Assembly: GCA_937899835.1 (NCBI GenBank)
Contig: CALCCE010000104.1
Span: 1-32,911 of the forward strand
DNA length: 32,911 nt
From: an uncultured Flavobacteriales bacterium
GTDB lineage: Bacteria; Bacteroidota; Bacteroidia; Flavobacteriales_G; Salibacteraceae
Direction: 5' to 3'
Numbering within the stretch: the first letter of the stretch is position 1; every line of letters starts with the position of its first letter. A model generated the notes under the pieces. That model saw nothing but the letters and a program-made list of their open reading frames with translations. It ran no database searches and was not told the origin of the DNA. Positions 10,280 through 18,675 of this stretch are shown here, in pieces. A program made the translations under genes and the position numbers.

Positions 10280-10351
10280 TATGTGACTATGTGACTATGT
10301 GTCTTTGCGACTATGCGACTATGTGTCGATGTGCCTATGGGCCGATGTGGC
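10280..10351. repeat. Degenerate tandem octamer array, nine units
   Basis: Within the 331-base gap 10166-10496, nine consecutive octamers run in register: TATGTGAC, TATGTGAC, TATGTGTC, TTTGCGAC, TATGCGAC, TATGTGTC, GATGTGCC, TATGGGCC, GATGTGGC. The exact repeats lie at the left end and drift to the right. No spacer-repeat alternation is present, so it is not CRISPR. The rest of the gap shows no gene and no clear promoter for 10497. Confidence 0.75.
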
Positions 10352-10496: not shown

Positions 10497-10931
10497 ATGA
10501 AAAAAGGCATTCAAACCCGTCACCAAATCAACGCTCCAATAGAATCGGTATGGAGCCACATCGCCACCGGAGCCCAATGGGAAAACTGGTTGCCCATTCT
10601 ATCAGGATCCAAGGTTTCCGGCAATACCCGTACTTGTAACCTGTTTGGCCCCGACGGCCATGAAGATGTGTTGCAAGAATCTTTTCTGGCCTCCAACCTG
10701 GAGAAAACCTTTATCTACCAAATCAATCAACAGCAATCTTTCCCGGCGACCGATATTGTTGGCTATATGAAATTAGAGGGAGACGAAAAGGCCACTACGC
10801 TGCACTGGTCAGTAGAAATGTCGGTGAAGTCGGAGGAAGATTTTGCCAACATTCAAACGCAGATTTCATTCATCTACACGGAAGCTGCAAAGCAACTGGA
10901 AGCCTTGGCCGCCGATAAGTTGTTGGCCTAA
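10497..10931 (+). CDS. SRPBCC family protein
   Basis: A 144-residue cytoplasmic protein with the SRPBCC opening QTRHQINAPIESVWSHIATGAQWENWLP, and a terminal helix (FIYTEAAKQLEALAADKLLA) as the family expects. It is encoded 58 bases before the start of the ECF sigma gene. It may be co-transcribed with the sigma gene, although the latter also has its own promoter at 10938-10969. The ligand is unknown. No signal peptide. Confidence 0.87.
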   Translation: MKKGIQTRHQINAPIESVWSHIATGAQWENWLPILSGSKVSGNTRTCNLFGPDGHEDVLQESFLASNLEKTFIYQINQQQSFPATDIVGYMKLEGDEKATTLHWSVEMSVKSEEDFANIQTQISFIYTEAAKQLEALAADKLLA

Positions 10932-10937
10932 AAATTC

Positions 10938-10969
10938 TTTTGTAACACCTACCCAATCAGTGCATCCAA
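10938..10969 (+). promoter_or_regulatory. Predicted ECF sigma-dependent promoter before the sigma gene
   Basis: TTTTGTAACACC (10938-10949), then 10 bases, then GTGCATCCAA (10960-10969), followed by GCAAAACC. The identical two boxes with identical spacing recur at 11915-11946. Few other bases are shared, so the match looks functional. It starts 6 bases after the SRPBCC stop codon and 21 bases before ATG 10990, implying autoregulation of the sigma factor. Confidence 0.72.
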
Positions 10970-10989
10970 TAGGGCAAAACCTTCCTGAA

Positions 10990-11859
10990 ATGAACCCGCT
11001 GATTGATACGTATTCTGAAGCCGAAAACCGGGCCTTGGTGCAACGCAGCCTCAATGGCGATCGCAAAGCCCTGGATGCACTGATTCACCTCCACCAACCC
11101 TTTATTTACAATGTGGCCTGGAAAATGACCCACGACCCGAACGATGCCTTGGACCTCACCCAGGAAACCCTAATCAAGGTGATCACCAAGTTGGCGCAAT
11201 TTCAATTTAAGAGTTCGTTTCGCACCTGGCTCTACCGCATTGTGTTCAACGAATTTTTACAAACCAAGCGCAGAAAGGGGGAACAGCGCTTTCAATCTTT
11301 TGAAGACTACGGCCACCAATTGGATCAAATTCCCAACAGTGCAGTGACTCAGGAAGAGGCCATGATACAGCGCGAATTTTCTCGCGAAATGCAGATCAGT
11401 TGTATGTCGGGTATGCTCATGTGCCTGGACCGGGAACAGCGCCTCCTCTACATTTTGGGCGATACATTTGGGGTAGACCACAACCTGGGGGCCGAGATTT
11501 TTGGCATCTCCAAACAGAATTTTAGGGTAAAGCTGCACCGGGCACGCAAAGAGCTCTACAACTTTATGAACAAGAAATGTGGCTTGGTAAACCGCAACAA
11601 TCCGTGCCGATGCCCTAAAAAGACGAAAACCTTGTTTGAAAATGGTTTTTTAACCGCAGACAAAAAGAGTTTTAATGTTGGCTTTCGAAGCAAAATACAG
11701 GATTACGTGGTGCAACACTACCAAAAGGCTGCCACTACTGTTGAAGAGAAATACACCGAACTCTATCGGGAACACCCGGCCAAAGACAATTTTTCCAAAG
11801 ATACCTTGGTGAAGGAATTGCTCAACGATGAAGCGCTGATACAGCTTTTTACCCCTTAA
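10990..11859 (+). CDS. ECF-type RNA polymerase sigma factor with C-terminal Cys-rich extension
   Basis: 289 residues from ATG 10990. Region 2 is clear (LIHLHQPFIYNVAWKMTHD, LDLTQETLIKV, FRTWLYRIVFNEF) and region 4 follows (MCLDREQRLLYILGD, GISKQNFRVKLHRARKELY). Beyond region 4 is an unusual ~95-residue tail starting with CGLV...NPCRCPKK, a Cys-rich patch that could bind metal, as in some ECF groups common in Bacteroidota. The frame is open upstream to 10843, but that part overlaps the SRPBCC gene in another frame. No anti-sigma gene is adjacent. The matching promoters at 10938 and 11915 predict that it controls itself and the 11975-12872 operon. Confidence 0.92.
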   Translation: MNPLIDTYSEAENRALVQRSLNGDRKALDALIHLHQPFIYNVAWKMTHDPNDALDLTQETLIKVITKLAQFQFKSSFRTWLYRIVFNEFLQTKRRKGEQRFQSFEDYGHQLDQIPNSAVTQEEAMIQREFSREMQISCMSGMLMCLDREQRLLYILGDTFGVDHNLGAEIFGISKQNFRVKLHRARKELYNFMNKKCGLVNRNNPCRCPKKTKTLFENGFLTADKKSFNVGFRSKIQDYVVQHYQKAATTVEEKYTELYREHPAKDNFSKDTLVKELLNDEALIQLFTP

Positions 11860-11884
11860 ACTTTTTCACTTCCCGGCACTGTTG

Positions 11885-11918
11885 AAAGCCGCAGCCCAAA
11901 AAGGTTGCGGCTTTTTTT
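11885..11918 (+). terminator. Rho-independent terminator after the sigma gene
   Basis: Arms AAAGCCGCA (11885-11893) and TGCGGCTTT (11906-11914) form a perfect 9-base stem with a 12-base loop, followed by a T-run to 11918. The end of the T-run is also the start of the -35 box of the next promoter. Confidence 0.85.
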
Positions 11919-11946
11919 GTAACACCGCTAAAAGTGGTGCATCCAA
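11915..11946 (+). promoter_or_regulatory. Predicted ECF sigma-dependent promoter before the SnoaL-like gene
   Basis: TTTTGTAACACC (11915-11926), 10 bases, GTGCATCCAA (11937-11946), then GCAAAACC: the same boxes and spacing as at 10938-10969. It lies 28 bases before ATG 11975 and, being behind a terminator, should start an independent operon. Confidence 0.75.
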
Positions 11947-11974: not shown

Positions 11975-12331
11975 ATGACAACGCAACAAATTGCAGAAAA
12001 CGTAAGCGAGCTGCTTCGTCAGGGAAACTTCGAAGCGGTATACGACAATTATTTCGAGGCACAACAAGTGCAGCACATCGAACCACAGTCGCCCTTTTTT
12101 CCTAACCTAACCGGGGTGGACAGCATCAAAGCGAAAGACGCTCAAATGCAGGCCAATATCGCATCAGTAGAAAGCCTGGAGGTGGGTACTCCCATCATAG
12201 CCAAATCTCATTTTGCGCTGCCCTACAAAGTCAAGATTCAAATGAAAGATGGACAGGTCATGGCACTGGACGAAATCATTGTGTACGAAATAAAAGATGG
12301 AAAAATCATCCTCGAACAATTTTTTTATTGA
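11975..12331 (+). CDS. SnoaL-like (NTF2 fold) protein
   Basis: A 118-residue protein with the NTF2-like pattern: an N-terminal helix (IAENVSELLRQGNFEAVYDNYFEA), QHIEP, and a last strand pair ending VYEIKDGKIILEQFFY. Such proteins are small cone-shaped folds that bind or turn over small molecules; no catalytic residue can be assigned here. It is the first gene after the second ECF promoter and is followed after 22 bases by an exported SRPBCC protein gene, so both probably form the sigma factor's target operon. Confidence 0.82.
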   Translation: MTTQQIAENVSELLRQGNFEAVYDNYFEAQQVQHIEPQSPFFPNLTGVDSIKAKDAQMQANIASVESLEVGTPIIAKSHFALPYKVKIQMKDGQVMALDEIIVYEIKDGKIILEQFFY

Positions 12332-12353: not shown

Positions 12354-12872
12354 ATGAATATCAGAAGCATCATAATCGCAACTACACTGTTGGTATGGGG
12401 CTACAGTTGTAGCACCGAAAAAGCCATGGCACAAACCACGGCCGATGCCGTGATCACCACCTCGGCCATTGCCGATATTTCGGCCGATGAGGTATGGGCA
12501 CAAATCCGCAAATTGGACAACATTCCTGAACTGTCTTCGGCAGTAGGCTCGCTCACCTGGACGGGCCCCAAAGGTGTTGGAGGACAACGAAAATGTGTGA
12601 CGCCGGACAAATCGGGGTTCTTTATTGAAAAGATCAGAGAATTCAATGACCAGGAGCGCACTTACGAATGGCAAGTGGTAGAAGGAGTGCCCGCCAGCAA
12701 TGTGATCAACCGTTTTCGGGTGGTCGATCTGGGATACAACCGCTGTATGGTGGTGTTTACCTCCCGGTTTCAATTCATTGAAAACCCAAATATGACAGAA
12801 GAGCAATTCAAAGCCTTTTTGCAATCGGCTTCGTATGAAATGGCCACCAACGCCATTGCCTTAGCGCAATAG
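12354..12872 (+). CDS. Exported SRPBCC family protein
   Basis: 172 residues from ATG 12354 (the open frame begins at 12297, inside the SnoaL gene). MNIRSIIIATTLLVWGYSC is a signal, probably of lipoprotein type with Cys19 (YSC), with AMAQ as an alternative cleavage point. The mature part has SRPBCC features: ITTSAIADISADEVWAQIRKLDNIPE, then TWTGPKGVGGQRKC, as seen in polyketide-cyclase/dehydrase-like members. It follows the SnoaL-like gene by 22 bases and ends at a strong terminator, so the two-gene unit is closed. Being exported, it would bind its ligand outside the cytoplasm, unlike the 10497 paralogue. Confidence 0.85.
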   Translation: MNIRSIIIATTLLVWGYSCSTEKAMAQTTADAVITTSAIADISADEVWAQIRKLDNIPELSSAVGSLTWTGPKGVGGQRKCVTPDKSGFFIEKIREFNDQERTYEWQVVEGVPASNVINRFRVVDLGYNRCMVVFTSRFQFIENPNMTEEQFKAFLQSASYEMATNAIALAQ

Positions 12873-12893: not shown

Positions 12894-12936
12894 CACCAAA
12901 GCAGCGTCCTGTTTCGGAAAGCTGCTTTGGTGTTTT
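12894..12936 (+). terminator. Rho-independent terminator after the exported SRPBCC gene
   Basis: Perfect 12-base stem CACCAAAGCAGC (12894-12905) / GCTGCTTTGGTG (12921-12932), 15-base loop, then TTTT on the plus strand. The minus strand lacks a T-run, so it does not obviously serve the convergent peptidase gene. Confidence 0.87.
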
Positions 12937-17880: not shown

Positions 17881-18675
17881 TTAAAACTTTCCTCCGTTCA
17901 CATCGTTCTCAGGCACTGGTTCTACATTGTCCCAGTGTTCTACAATTTTTCCTGCTTCGATTCTAAAAATATCGACCTGAGCATAATCCTGATTCAGTTT
18001 TCCATCGTTCCAATTGGCGCGGCACAGCGTGGCTACAAAGTTTCCCTGCCCTACCAGCAATACAATTTCCTGGTAATTCAAAGGTCGGTTGGGCATATTG
18101 GCCAACTTATAAAAAGCCGCAAAGCCATCGGCCACCTCTTTGTTGTGTTGAATGTACTGGTCTTCAGAGATGTAATCAGATAGCTTTGAAGGATCGCCTC
18201 CTGGCATCAAAGCGTCTTGAATTAGGTTCCGCACCAAGGTTTTGTTTTCTTCTGTTTTGTCGAGGTCAGTCACCTCTGTGGGACCGTCGATGGAAGTGTG
18301 TCCTGAAGGAGTAGCATCAGCATAAGGGGCAATGACATCCCAATGTTCGATAATCTTATCGTTTTCGTCAGTATCAAAAAAGTCGGTGGTGACCCACCGC
18401 GCCTCTCCTTCGTTGATGTTTTGATAAGCTTGCAAAAACACATACTGGCCATCTACCAGCTTGCGAATGATTTGAATATCGCGTTTGGGATTGCGCTCGA
18501 TAAAGGGTTCGAAAAACTCTACAAAGCCTTCTATCCCATCGCGCACCCCGGTGCTGTGCTGAGTATAGCGGTCTCCGGTATAACGGGTAACGGATTCGCG
18601 TACTTTTCCATCCCGAATACCTTCCATGTAGAGGCGCTGGGCGTTGTCGAGCTTAGGATTGATGGTTGAGGACAT
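17881..18675 (-). CDS. Tandem NTF2/SnoaL-like protein
   Basis: 264 residues made of two copies of the SnoaL-like fold. Both halves share a pattern: YTQHSTGVRDGIEGFVEFF and YIQHNKEVADGFAAFYKLA, then FLQAYQNINEGEARWVTTDFF and VATLCRANWNDGKLNQDY, and each ends with IIEHWDVI and IVEHWDNV. The Q-H-x and E-H-W-D motifs are those of the predicted SnoaL-like aldol-condensation enzymes of this superfamily, though no reaction is proven for them. It is convergent with the esterase gene, with only 21 bases between the stops. It belongs to the local set of NTF2/SRPBCC proteins but has no visible shared promoter with it. Confidence 0.88.
   Translation of the reverse strand: MSSTINPKLDNAQRLYMEGIRDGKVRESVTRYTGDRYTQHSTGVRDGIEGFVEFFEPFIERNPKRDIQIIRKLVDGQYVFLQAYQNINEGEARWVTTDFFDTDENDKIIEHWDVIAPYADATPSGHTSIDGPTEVTDLDKTEENKTLVRNLIQDALMPGGDPSKLSDYISEDQYIQHNKEVADGFAAFYKLANMPNRPLNYQEIVLLVGQGNFVATLCRANWNDGKLNQDYAQVDIFRIEAGKIVEHWDNVEPVPENDVNGGKF

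Follow-up and report, generated by a model that had tools for sequence, protein, structure and literature searches.

Putative promoters of an ECF sigma factor with a C-terminal extension, shared with a neighbouring SnoaL/SRPBCC gene pair in an uncultured Flavobacteriales bacterium

Organization of the locus

We studied a 32,911-nucleotide stretch of DNA (hereafter the window) from an uncultured Flavobacteriales bacterium, in which the same two-box element precedes an ECF sigma factor gene and the gene pair next to it, and asked whether these boxes are promoters recognized by that sigma factor itself. The sigma factor gene (10990-11859, + strand) encodes 289 amino acids, which comprise sigma2 and sigma4 domains and a C-terminal extension. 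It is followed on the same strand by two predicted target genes, the first for a SnoaL_5 protein of 118 aa (11975-12331) and the second for an SRPBCC (Polyketide_cyc2) protein of 172 aa (12354-12872), both assigned with Pfam; by eye, the SRPBCC protein presented an N-terminal stretch similar to an export signal. RNA folding gave two terminator-like hairpins on the + strand: one in the gap between the sigma gene and the second element (11884-11915; 13 pairs and then a T-run, -21.8 kcal/mol, z -6.24), whose final base doubles as the opening base of the second -35 box, and another behind the SnoaL-SRPBCC pair (12894-12932; -25.1 kcal/mol, z -6.56). A simple terminator scan listed neither of them. 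If the first hairpin terminates the sigma transcript, the SnoaL/SRPBCC pair needs a promoter of its own.

A further SRPBCC gene (10497-10931, + strand, 144 aa) lies just upstream, with 6 bases between its end and the first -35 box; it is not itself preceded by the motif, and we are unsure whether it belongs to the circuit. The gap between this gene and an S41-peptidase gene carries a tandem array (10280-10349) of the 8-base unit TATGTGAC, with about 7.5 copies and 80% matches. Another SnoaL-domain gene, of the SnoaL_2 type (17884-18675, - strand, 264 aa), is located 5 kb downstream of the cluster and is not accompanied by the motif. Pfam searches of six more ORFs in the window gave matches for five (Peptidase_S41, ArsR-type HTH, Peptidase_M48, Por_Secre_tail and SnoaL_2) and nothing for the sixth; no anti-sigma family appeared among the genes of the locus and these six ORFs.

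The two-box element in the window

The element, TTTTGTAACACC-N10-GTGCATCCAA, was found on the + strand at 10938-10969 and 11915-11946, the positions given in a preliminary description of this DNA, with a 10-base spacer in both copies. In the sigma gene's own putative promoter, the -35 box (TTTTGTAACACC), assigned by family conservation (see below), spans 10938-10949, and the -10 box (GTGCATCCAA, with the conserved core TGYATCHAA) spans 10960-10969, 20 bases 5' of the ATG. The second putative promoter, a copy of the motif, has its -35 box at 11915-11926 and its -10 box at 11937-11946, 28 bases 5' of the ATG of the SnoaL gene. The placement of one copy before the sigma gene and the other before the SnoaL/SRPBCC pair was thus as described, and so was the unrelated sequence between the boxes, where only 2 of the 10 spacer bases are alike. 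The same description had also pointed to a shared GCAAAACC behind the boxes. This sequence is indeed present in both copies, but it begins one base closer to the -10 box in the second copy than in the first; being out of register, it was rejected as a third box, and the conserved feature of this region is an A-tract instead.

The search of the complete genome proposed in the preliminary description recovered TTTTGTAACACC-N10-GTGCATCCAA at the two sites of the window and nowhere else in 6,902,630 bases (6.9 Mb). A promoter scan of the window found no E. coli-type sigma70 site overlapping the boxes.

Conservation of the element in related loci

Scanning a genome collection gave 471 related loci, of which the best 80 were compared. 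Judged by record title, most of these come from Bacteroidota; their sigma factors are 46-70% identical to that of the window in the best segment. The locus is also present in cultivable relatives such as Flagellimonas allohymeniacidonis and Aquimarina spongiae. A strict motif, TGTMACA-N15-YATCHAA, was modelled on the upstream regions of sigma genes already inspected. It matched 125 times in the 772,796 bases of these best 80 loci, 52 times no more than 120 bases upstream of the sigma gene and 73 times elsewhere, and 117 of the 125 sites were intergenic by a simple ORF rule. Over the same bases, twelve other spacings (9-14 and 16-21) gave 3 matches altogether, and the reversed motif at spacing 15 gave 1. 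At least one strict site was present in 65 of the 80 loci (24 with one, 22 with two and 19 with three), and a third promoter is present in the loci of several relatives. With up to 2 mismatches, a site was recognized upstream of the sigma gene in 56 of the 80 loci, all 56 having a spacing of 15 although 14-16 was permitted, and no own site was recognized for the other 24 sigma genes. Among 3622 background stretches from elsewhere in the same loci, 51 passed, 40 of them at spacing 15, and some of these will represent other real sites. Five loci whose own site went unrecognized (L030, L076, L089, L093 and L096) have a strict site at a greater distance upstream, in the same orientation as the sigma gene, which could there be expressed from a shared transcript.

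The conserved element reads tttTGTmACACct-(11 bases)-tGYATChAA. Positions left free by the pattern were also conserved over 124 distinct sites, two of them from the window: the base after TGTMACA is C in 96%, that before YATC is G in 94%, and the three bases before TGT are T in 69-77%. The ten middle spacer positions carry only 0.07-0.54 bit each, and the G with which GTGCATCCAA opens is likewise unconserved, being present in 9% of the same 124 sites. The A-tract lies 5-7 bases past the -10 box, with 74-80% A in 122 distinct sites.

These comparisons bear on whether the two copies might be alike by chance or through a recent local duplication, a reading that the presence of only two copies in the genome of the window could suggest. 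It is already refuted by the conservation across genomes, since the identical arrangement recurs in relatives whose sigma proteins are 45-70% identical; in addition, the spacers and flanks of the two copies are unrelated, and 100 dinucleotide shuffles of the window gave 0 matches to TTTTGTAACACC-N10-GTGCATCCAA. We give this reading practically no credence. The recurrence at a single spacing, upstream of the sigma gene as well as of neighbouring genes and even in distant relatives, supports the earlier proposal that the two boxes are the sigma factor's own recognition motif and define an autoregulon.

Genes downstream of the element

Apart from the sites at sigma gene starts, 72 of the 73 strict sites are followed, no more than 250 bases away, by an ORF of 80 aa or longer. 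Sequence clustering placed 55 of these 72 ORFs in one group holding SRPBCC proteins and 7 in a group with alpha/beta hydrolases; the remaining ORFs formed groups of 4, 2, 2 (SnoaL_5), 1 and 1. Ten of the downstream proteins were scanned with Pfam, with the result of six Polyketide_cyc2, one abhydrolase, one SnoaL_5 and two without a match. The target of a third promoter in L019 (6546-7133), with a counterpart in L045, is a protein of 196 aa that by eye resembles AhpD/carboxymuconolactone decarboxylases and had no Pfam match; the carboxymuconolactone-decarboxylase type is a class of ECF41 targets.

Some further homologues of the sigma factor were noted. Those of L057, L065, L067 and L078 come from contigs that binning assigned to Moraxellaceae, Calditrichia, Chloroflexi and Leptospiraceae, which reflects either gene transfer or misbinned contigs. 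Plasmid-borne relatives occur in Leptospira (L171, plasmid lcp1, 46% identical; 14 records of Leptospira plasmid relatives by organism name) and in Runella (L170, plasmid pRUNSL01, 42%), and these plasmid relatives have no annotated SRPBCC neighbour.

The sigma factor and its C-terminal extension

The sigma protein matched Sigma70_r2 with 59.2 bits (cut-off 24, E 3.5e-16) and TIGR02937 with 77.2 bits (cut-off 42.9), while Sigma70_r4_2, with 24.0 bits, remained slightly below its cut-off of 25.7. It has sigma2 and sigma4 and lacks sigma3, as is characteristic of ECF (group IV) factors. It contains exactly five cysteines, at residues 138, 145, 197, 206 and 208, with none before residue 138. None of the five varied in the alignment of family members (80 of 80 sequences; drawn from the best 80 of 471 loci, L070 left out), an invariance that for Cys 145, 206 and 208 is partly built in because the loci were found by peptide patterns containing these three; Cys 138 and 197 were absent from the search patterns, and their invariance is free of this selection effect. 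The same five cysteines were invariant in a separate alignment of 11 sequences, ten of which had been found without cysteine-containing patterns, and by eye the same pattern is present in L013, a 35% identical homologue outside that alignment.

The predicted structure of the sigma factor had a mean pLDDT of 84.8 and a pTM of 0.73. In a fold search it resembled sigma factors solved with a bound anti-sigma factor: SigW with RsiW (Z 16.9 over 153 residues) and CnrH-CnrY (Z 15.0). It also matched the extension-bearing SigG1 (Z 13.2), whereas RpoE in its transcription complex aligned with an rmsd of 26.7 (Z 10.4). Such matches fit, and do not show, a model in which the extension holds the sigma domains shut. 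The extension itself (residues ~200-289) had pLDDT values of 58-87 by blocks; as the fold search barely tested it, we do not assign it to any fold, known or new.

The variable -35 base and the recognition helix

TGTMACA varies between A and C at its fourth base. Among 57 sigma factors with an own upstream site, residue 180 was V or I in all 41 with A, and K, Q, A or T in all 16 with C; it was the only alignment column carrying full information on this base, residue 183 being only partly associated with it. Thirteen loci scored by other sites agreed as well, which gave a total of 70 of 70. Sites within one locus were concordant for A or C in 59 of 60 comparisons, the exception being L053, which mixes both. 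L070, whose reading frame stops after 10 residues, was left out of the tree and the residue tests; A2 comprises 63 of the 79 prepared references. On the tree there were three switches in either trait, amounting to 2-3 independent pairs (sign test, median p 0.5), and with so few independent switches the agreement between base and residue 180 is suggestive but no proof.

Alignment with E. coli RpoE, taken from a genome record, equated residue 180 with S172, 183 with F175 and 184 with R176. In the published RpoE account (PMC6713349), S172 bonds to the base at -34, while F175 contacts T' at -33 and R176 contacts G-35. In our own alignment, which set the AC of the box at -32/-31, the variable base falls at -33 and the S172 contact at -34, so that residue 180 is located beside, and not at, the textbook contact. 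Two of the 57 sequences have T for G at -35, and they are the only two with R184K. Three diverged relatives (L067, L074 and L092) have GTC instead of ATC at -10 upstream of the sigma gene, hinting at a gradual drift of promoter specificity; two of them also have TTTCACA at -35.

These observations also bear on the idea that the boxes form a two-part operator bound by some other regulator. A pair of conserved boxes could represent half-sites, and the transcription start is so far a predicted one. Nevertheless, the -35 base tracks a residue of the sigma recognition helix, the relatives just mentioned have canonical GTC -10 boxes, and the spacing is strictly 15 in 125 sites (best 80 of 471 loci), as a promoter would require. 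Furthermore, the motif accompanies the sigma gene and not any other regulator gene identified, and the two boxes are not inverted repeats of each other, for which reason an inverted-repeat operator was discarded. We consider an operator very unlikely.

Distribution in whole genomes and size of the regulon

The strict motif was then counted in whole genomes. In 18 genomes reached via named loci and mostly chosen for loci having sites (L037 left out), 43 of 49 strict sites were at the sigma locus and 6 elsewhere, with 1 match of the reversed control. The sigma factor was present at E <= 1e-30 in 8 of 149 genomes, that of the window included; among the 148 other relatives, strict sites were found in 4 of the 7 with the sigma factor and, one each, in 9 of the 141 without it, the reversed control giving 3. 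A sample of 392 genomes of the phylum, including that of the window and taken without screening for the sigma gene, had one strict site each in 15 of the 391 other genomes, and the reversed pattern had 17 matches.

These counts are relevant to a reading in which the promoters belong to another sigma factor, housekeeping or ECF, and the sigma gene and its neighbours are merely co-regulated. The genome of the window has 28 matches to the ECF-type sigma profile, and TGTAAC is a -35 core of the kind general among ECF factors, both of which leave room for another factor. Yet 43 of the 49 strict sites in the 18 genomes are at loci of the same sigma family, and the 15 single sites in the 391 unscreened phylum genomes are not above the 17 of the reversed pattern. 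The -35 base, moreover, agrees with a residue of the window's sigma family, and no E. coli-type sigma70 site lies over the boxes, all of which makes this reading highly improbable. Concentration at the sigma locus across genomes and covariation with recognition-helix residues further back the autoregulon first proposed.

In the genome of the window, strict and one-mismatch searches gave 8 matches in all versus 4 for the reversed control. A third strict site, on contig C305, is antisense inside an ORF, and the five one-mismatch sites are all inside ORFs; these six were set aside as chance matches. The recognizable regulon of this genome would consist of only the two promoters of the locus (2 of 2 credible sites). 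In a related genome (G124), a strict site precedes an SRPBCC protein 70% identical over 171 residues to that of the window, on a different contig from the close sigma homologue of the same genome, and a second family-motif site precedes a neighbouring ORF in this unlinked region. Regulation in trans is the natural reading of these unlinked sites before an SRPBCC counterpart.

Proposed circuit

From these sequence comparisons, we regard it as very probable that the ECF sigma factor of 10990-11859 recognizes both elements as -35/-10 promoters, which drive the sigma gene and the SnoaL_5-SRPBCC pair. The comparisons lend good support to autoregulation of this ECF sigma factor and to a regulon that is very small and local. 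The first promoter would drive the sigma gene in positive autoregulation; the second would drive the SnoaL_5-SRPBCC pair, cut off from the sigma transcript by the terminator-like hairpin. Transcription would start just past the -10 box and depend on this sigma factor. The C-terminal extension and its cysteines may replace an anti-sigma factor, releasing the sigma domains upon a signal, and the SRPBCC and SnoaL proteins may bind or process the small molecule concerned.

A wider proposal, which we advance tentatively and hold to be rather doubtful as a whole, is that these proteins constitute a Bacteroidota family of one-protein sensor sigma factors. Their extension with five cysteines would be a built-in, metal- or redox-gated anti-sigma domain, their regulon would be the own gene and a neighbouring SRPBCC/SnoaL/hydrolase set, most units with a private promoter copy, and residue 180 would switch the -35 specificity. 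If true, the built-in extension and a regulon of two or three promoters would make a compact, portable switch. For this Bacteroidota sigma group, the locus provides a promoter motif that lends itself to testing, a regulon that is probably almost complete and a residue that may set specificity, and the A/C rule of residue 180 could extend the sigma4 recognition code.

Comparison with known sigma systems

The TIGR02957 (SigX4) model, which we take to stand for ECF41, matched the sigma factor of the window with 36.5 bits versus a cut-off of 323.25, and in the sigma core only (positions 6-155 of 281). As described by Wecke et al. 2012 (PMC3426412), ECF41 factors have no adjacent anti-sigma gene, a regulatory, SnoaL-like C-terminal extension, the motif TGTCACA-n16-CGTC upstream of the sigma gene, its neighbour or both, and no target other than that neighbouring gene or operon, which is of the carboxymuconolactone decarboxylase, oxidoreductase or epimerase type. 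Measured by that description, ECF41 is the closest working analogue of the present circuit, which shares with it the C-terminal extension, the lack of an anti-sigma gene among the window genes scanned and the exclusively local targets (both credible sites). In contrast, the sigma factor of the window has no SnoaL domain (E <= 0.01) and its extension has conserved cysteines; the motif is TGTMACA-N15-YATCHAA in the family and TGTAACA-N15-CATC in the window, one base shorter and with ATC for GTC; and the targets are mainly SRPBCC proteins. Membership in ECF41 was thus ruled out, as neither the SnoaL-like extension nor TGTCACA-n16-CGTC was found.

The CorE-like ECF sigma factors (ECF44/ECF238), according to PMC8999054, also lack an anti-sigma factor and have a cysteine-containing C-terminal extension, but their sigma2-sigma4 linker bears a CXC motif. 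The sigma factor of the window, with its first cysteine at residue 138, has no linker CXC, which excludes it from this group. The canonical autoregulated factors RpoE and SigW, as described in PMC8103513, resemble it in sigma2/sigma4 architecture, AAC-type -35 and, as predicted here, positive autoregulation; it differs from them in the C-terminal extension, in ATC for GTC at -10 and in that no adjacent anti-sigma gene was found. ECF248 and ECF240 were considered as candidate groups, since the models listed for them in PMC8999054 are from Bacteroidota; ECF248 is said to adjoin glycosyltransferases. The same review names numerous extension-bearing ECF groups, a large share of which await study. 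The family may already be numbered, with a listed motif, in the 2021 ECF classification. A literature search over titles and the beginnings of abstracts found no description of the motif or of the sigma/SRPBCC/SnoaL combinations. The logic of the circuit is known from these systems, and the extension, promoter and target set together appear to be new, within the checks made here.
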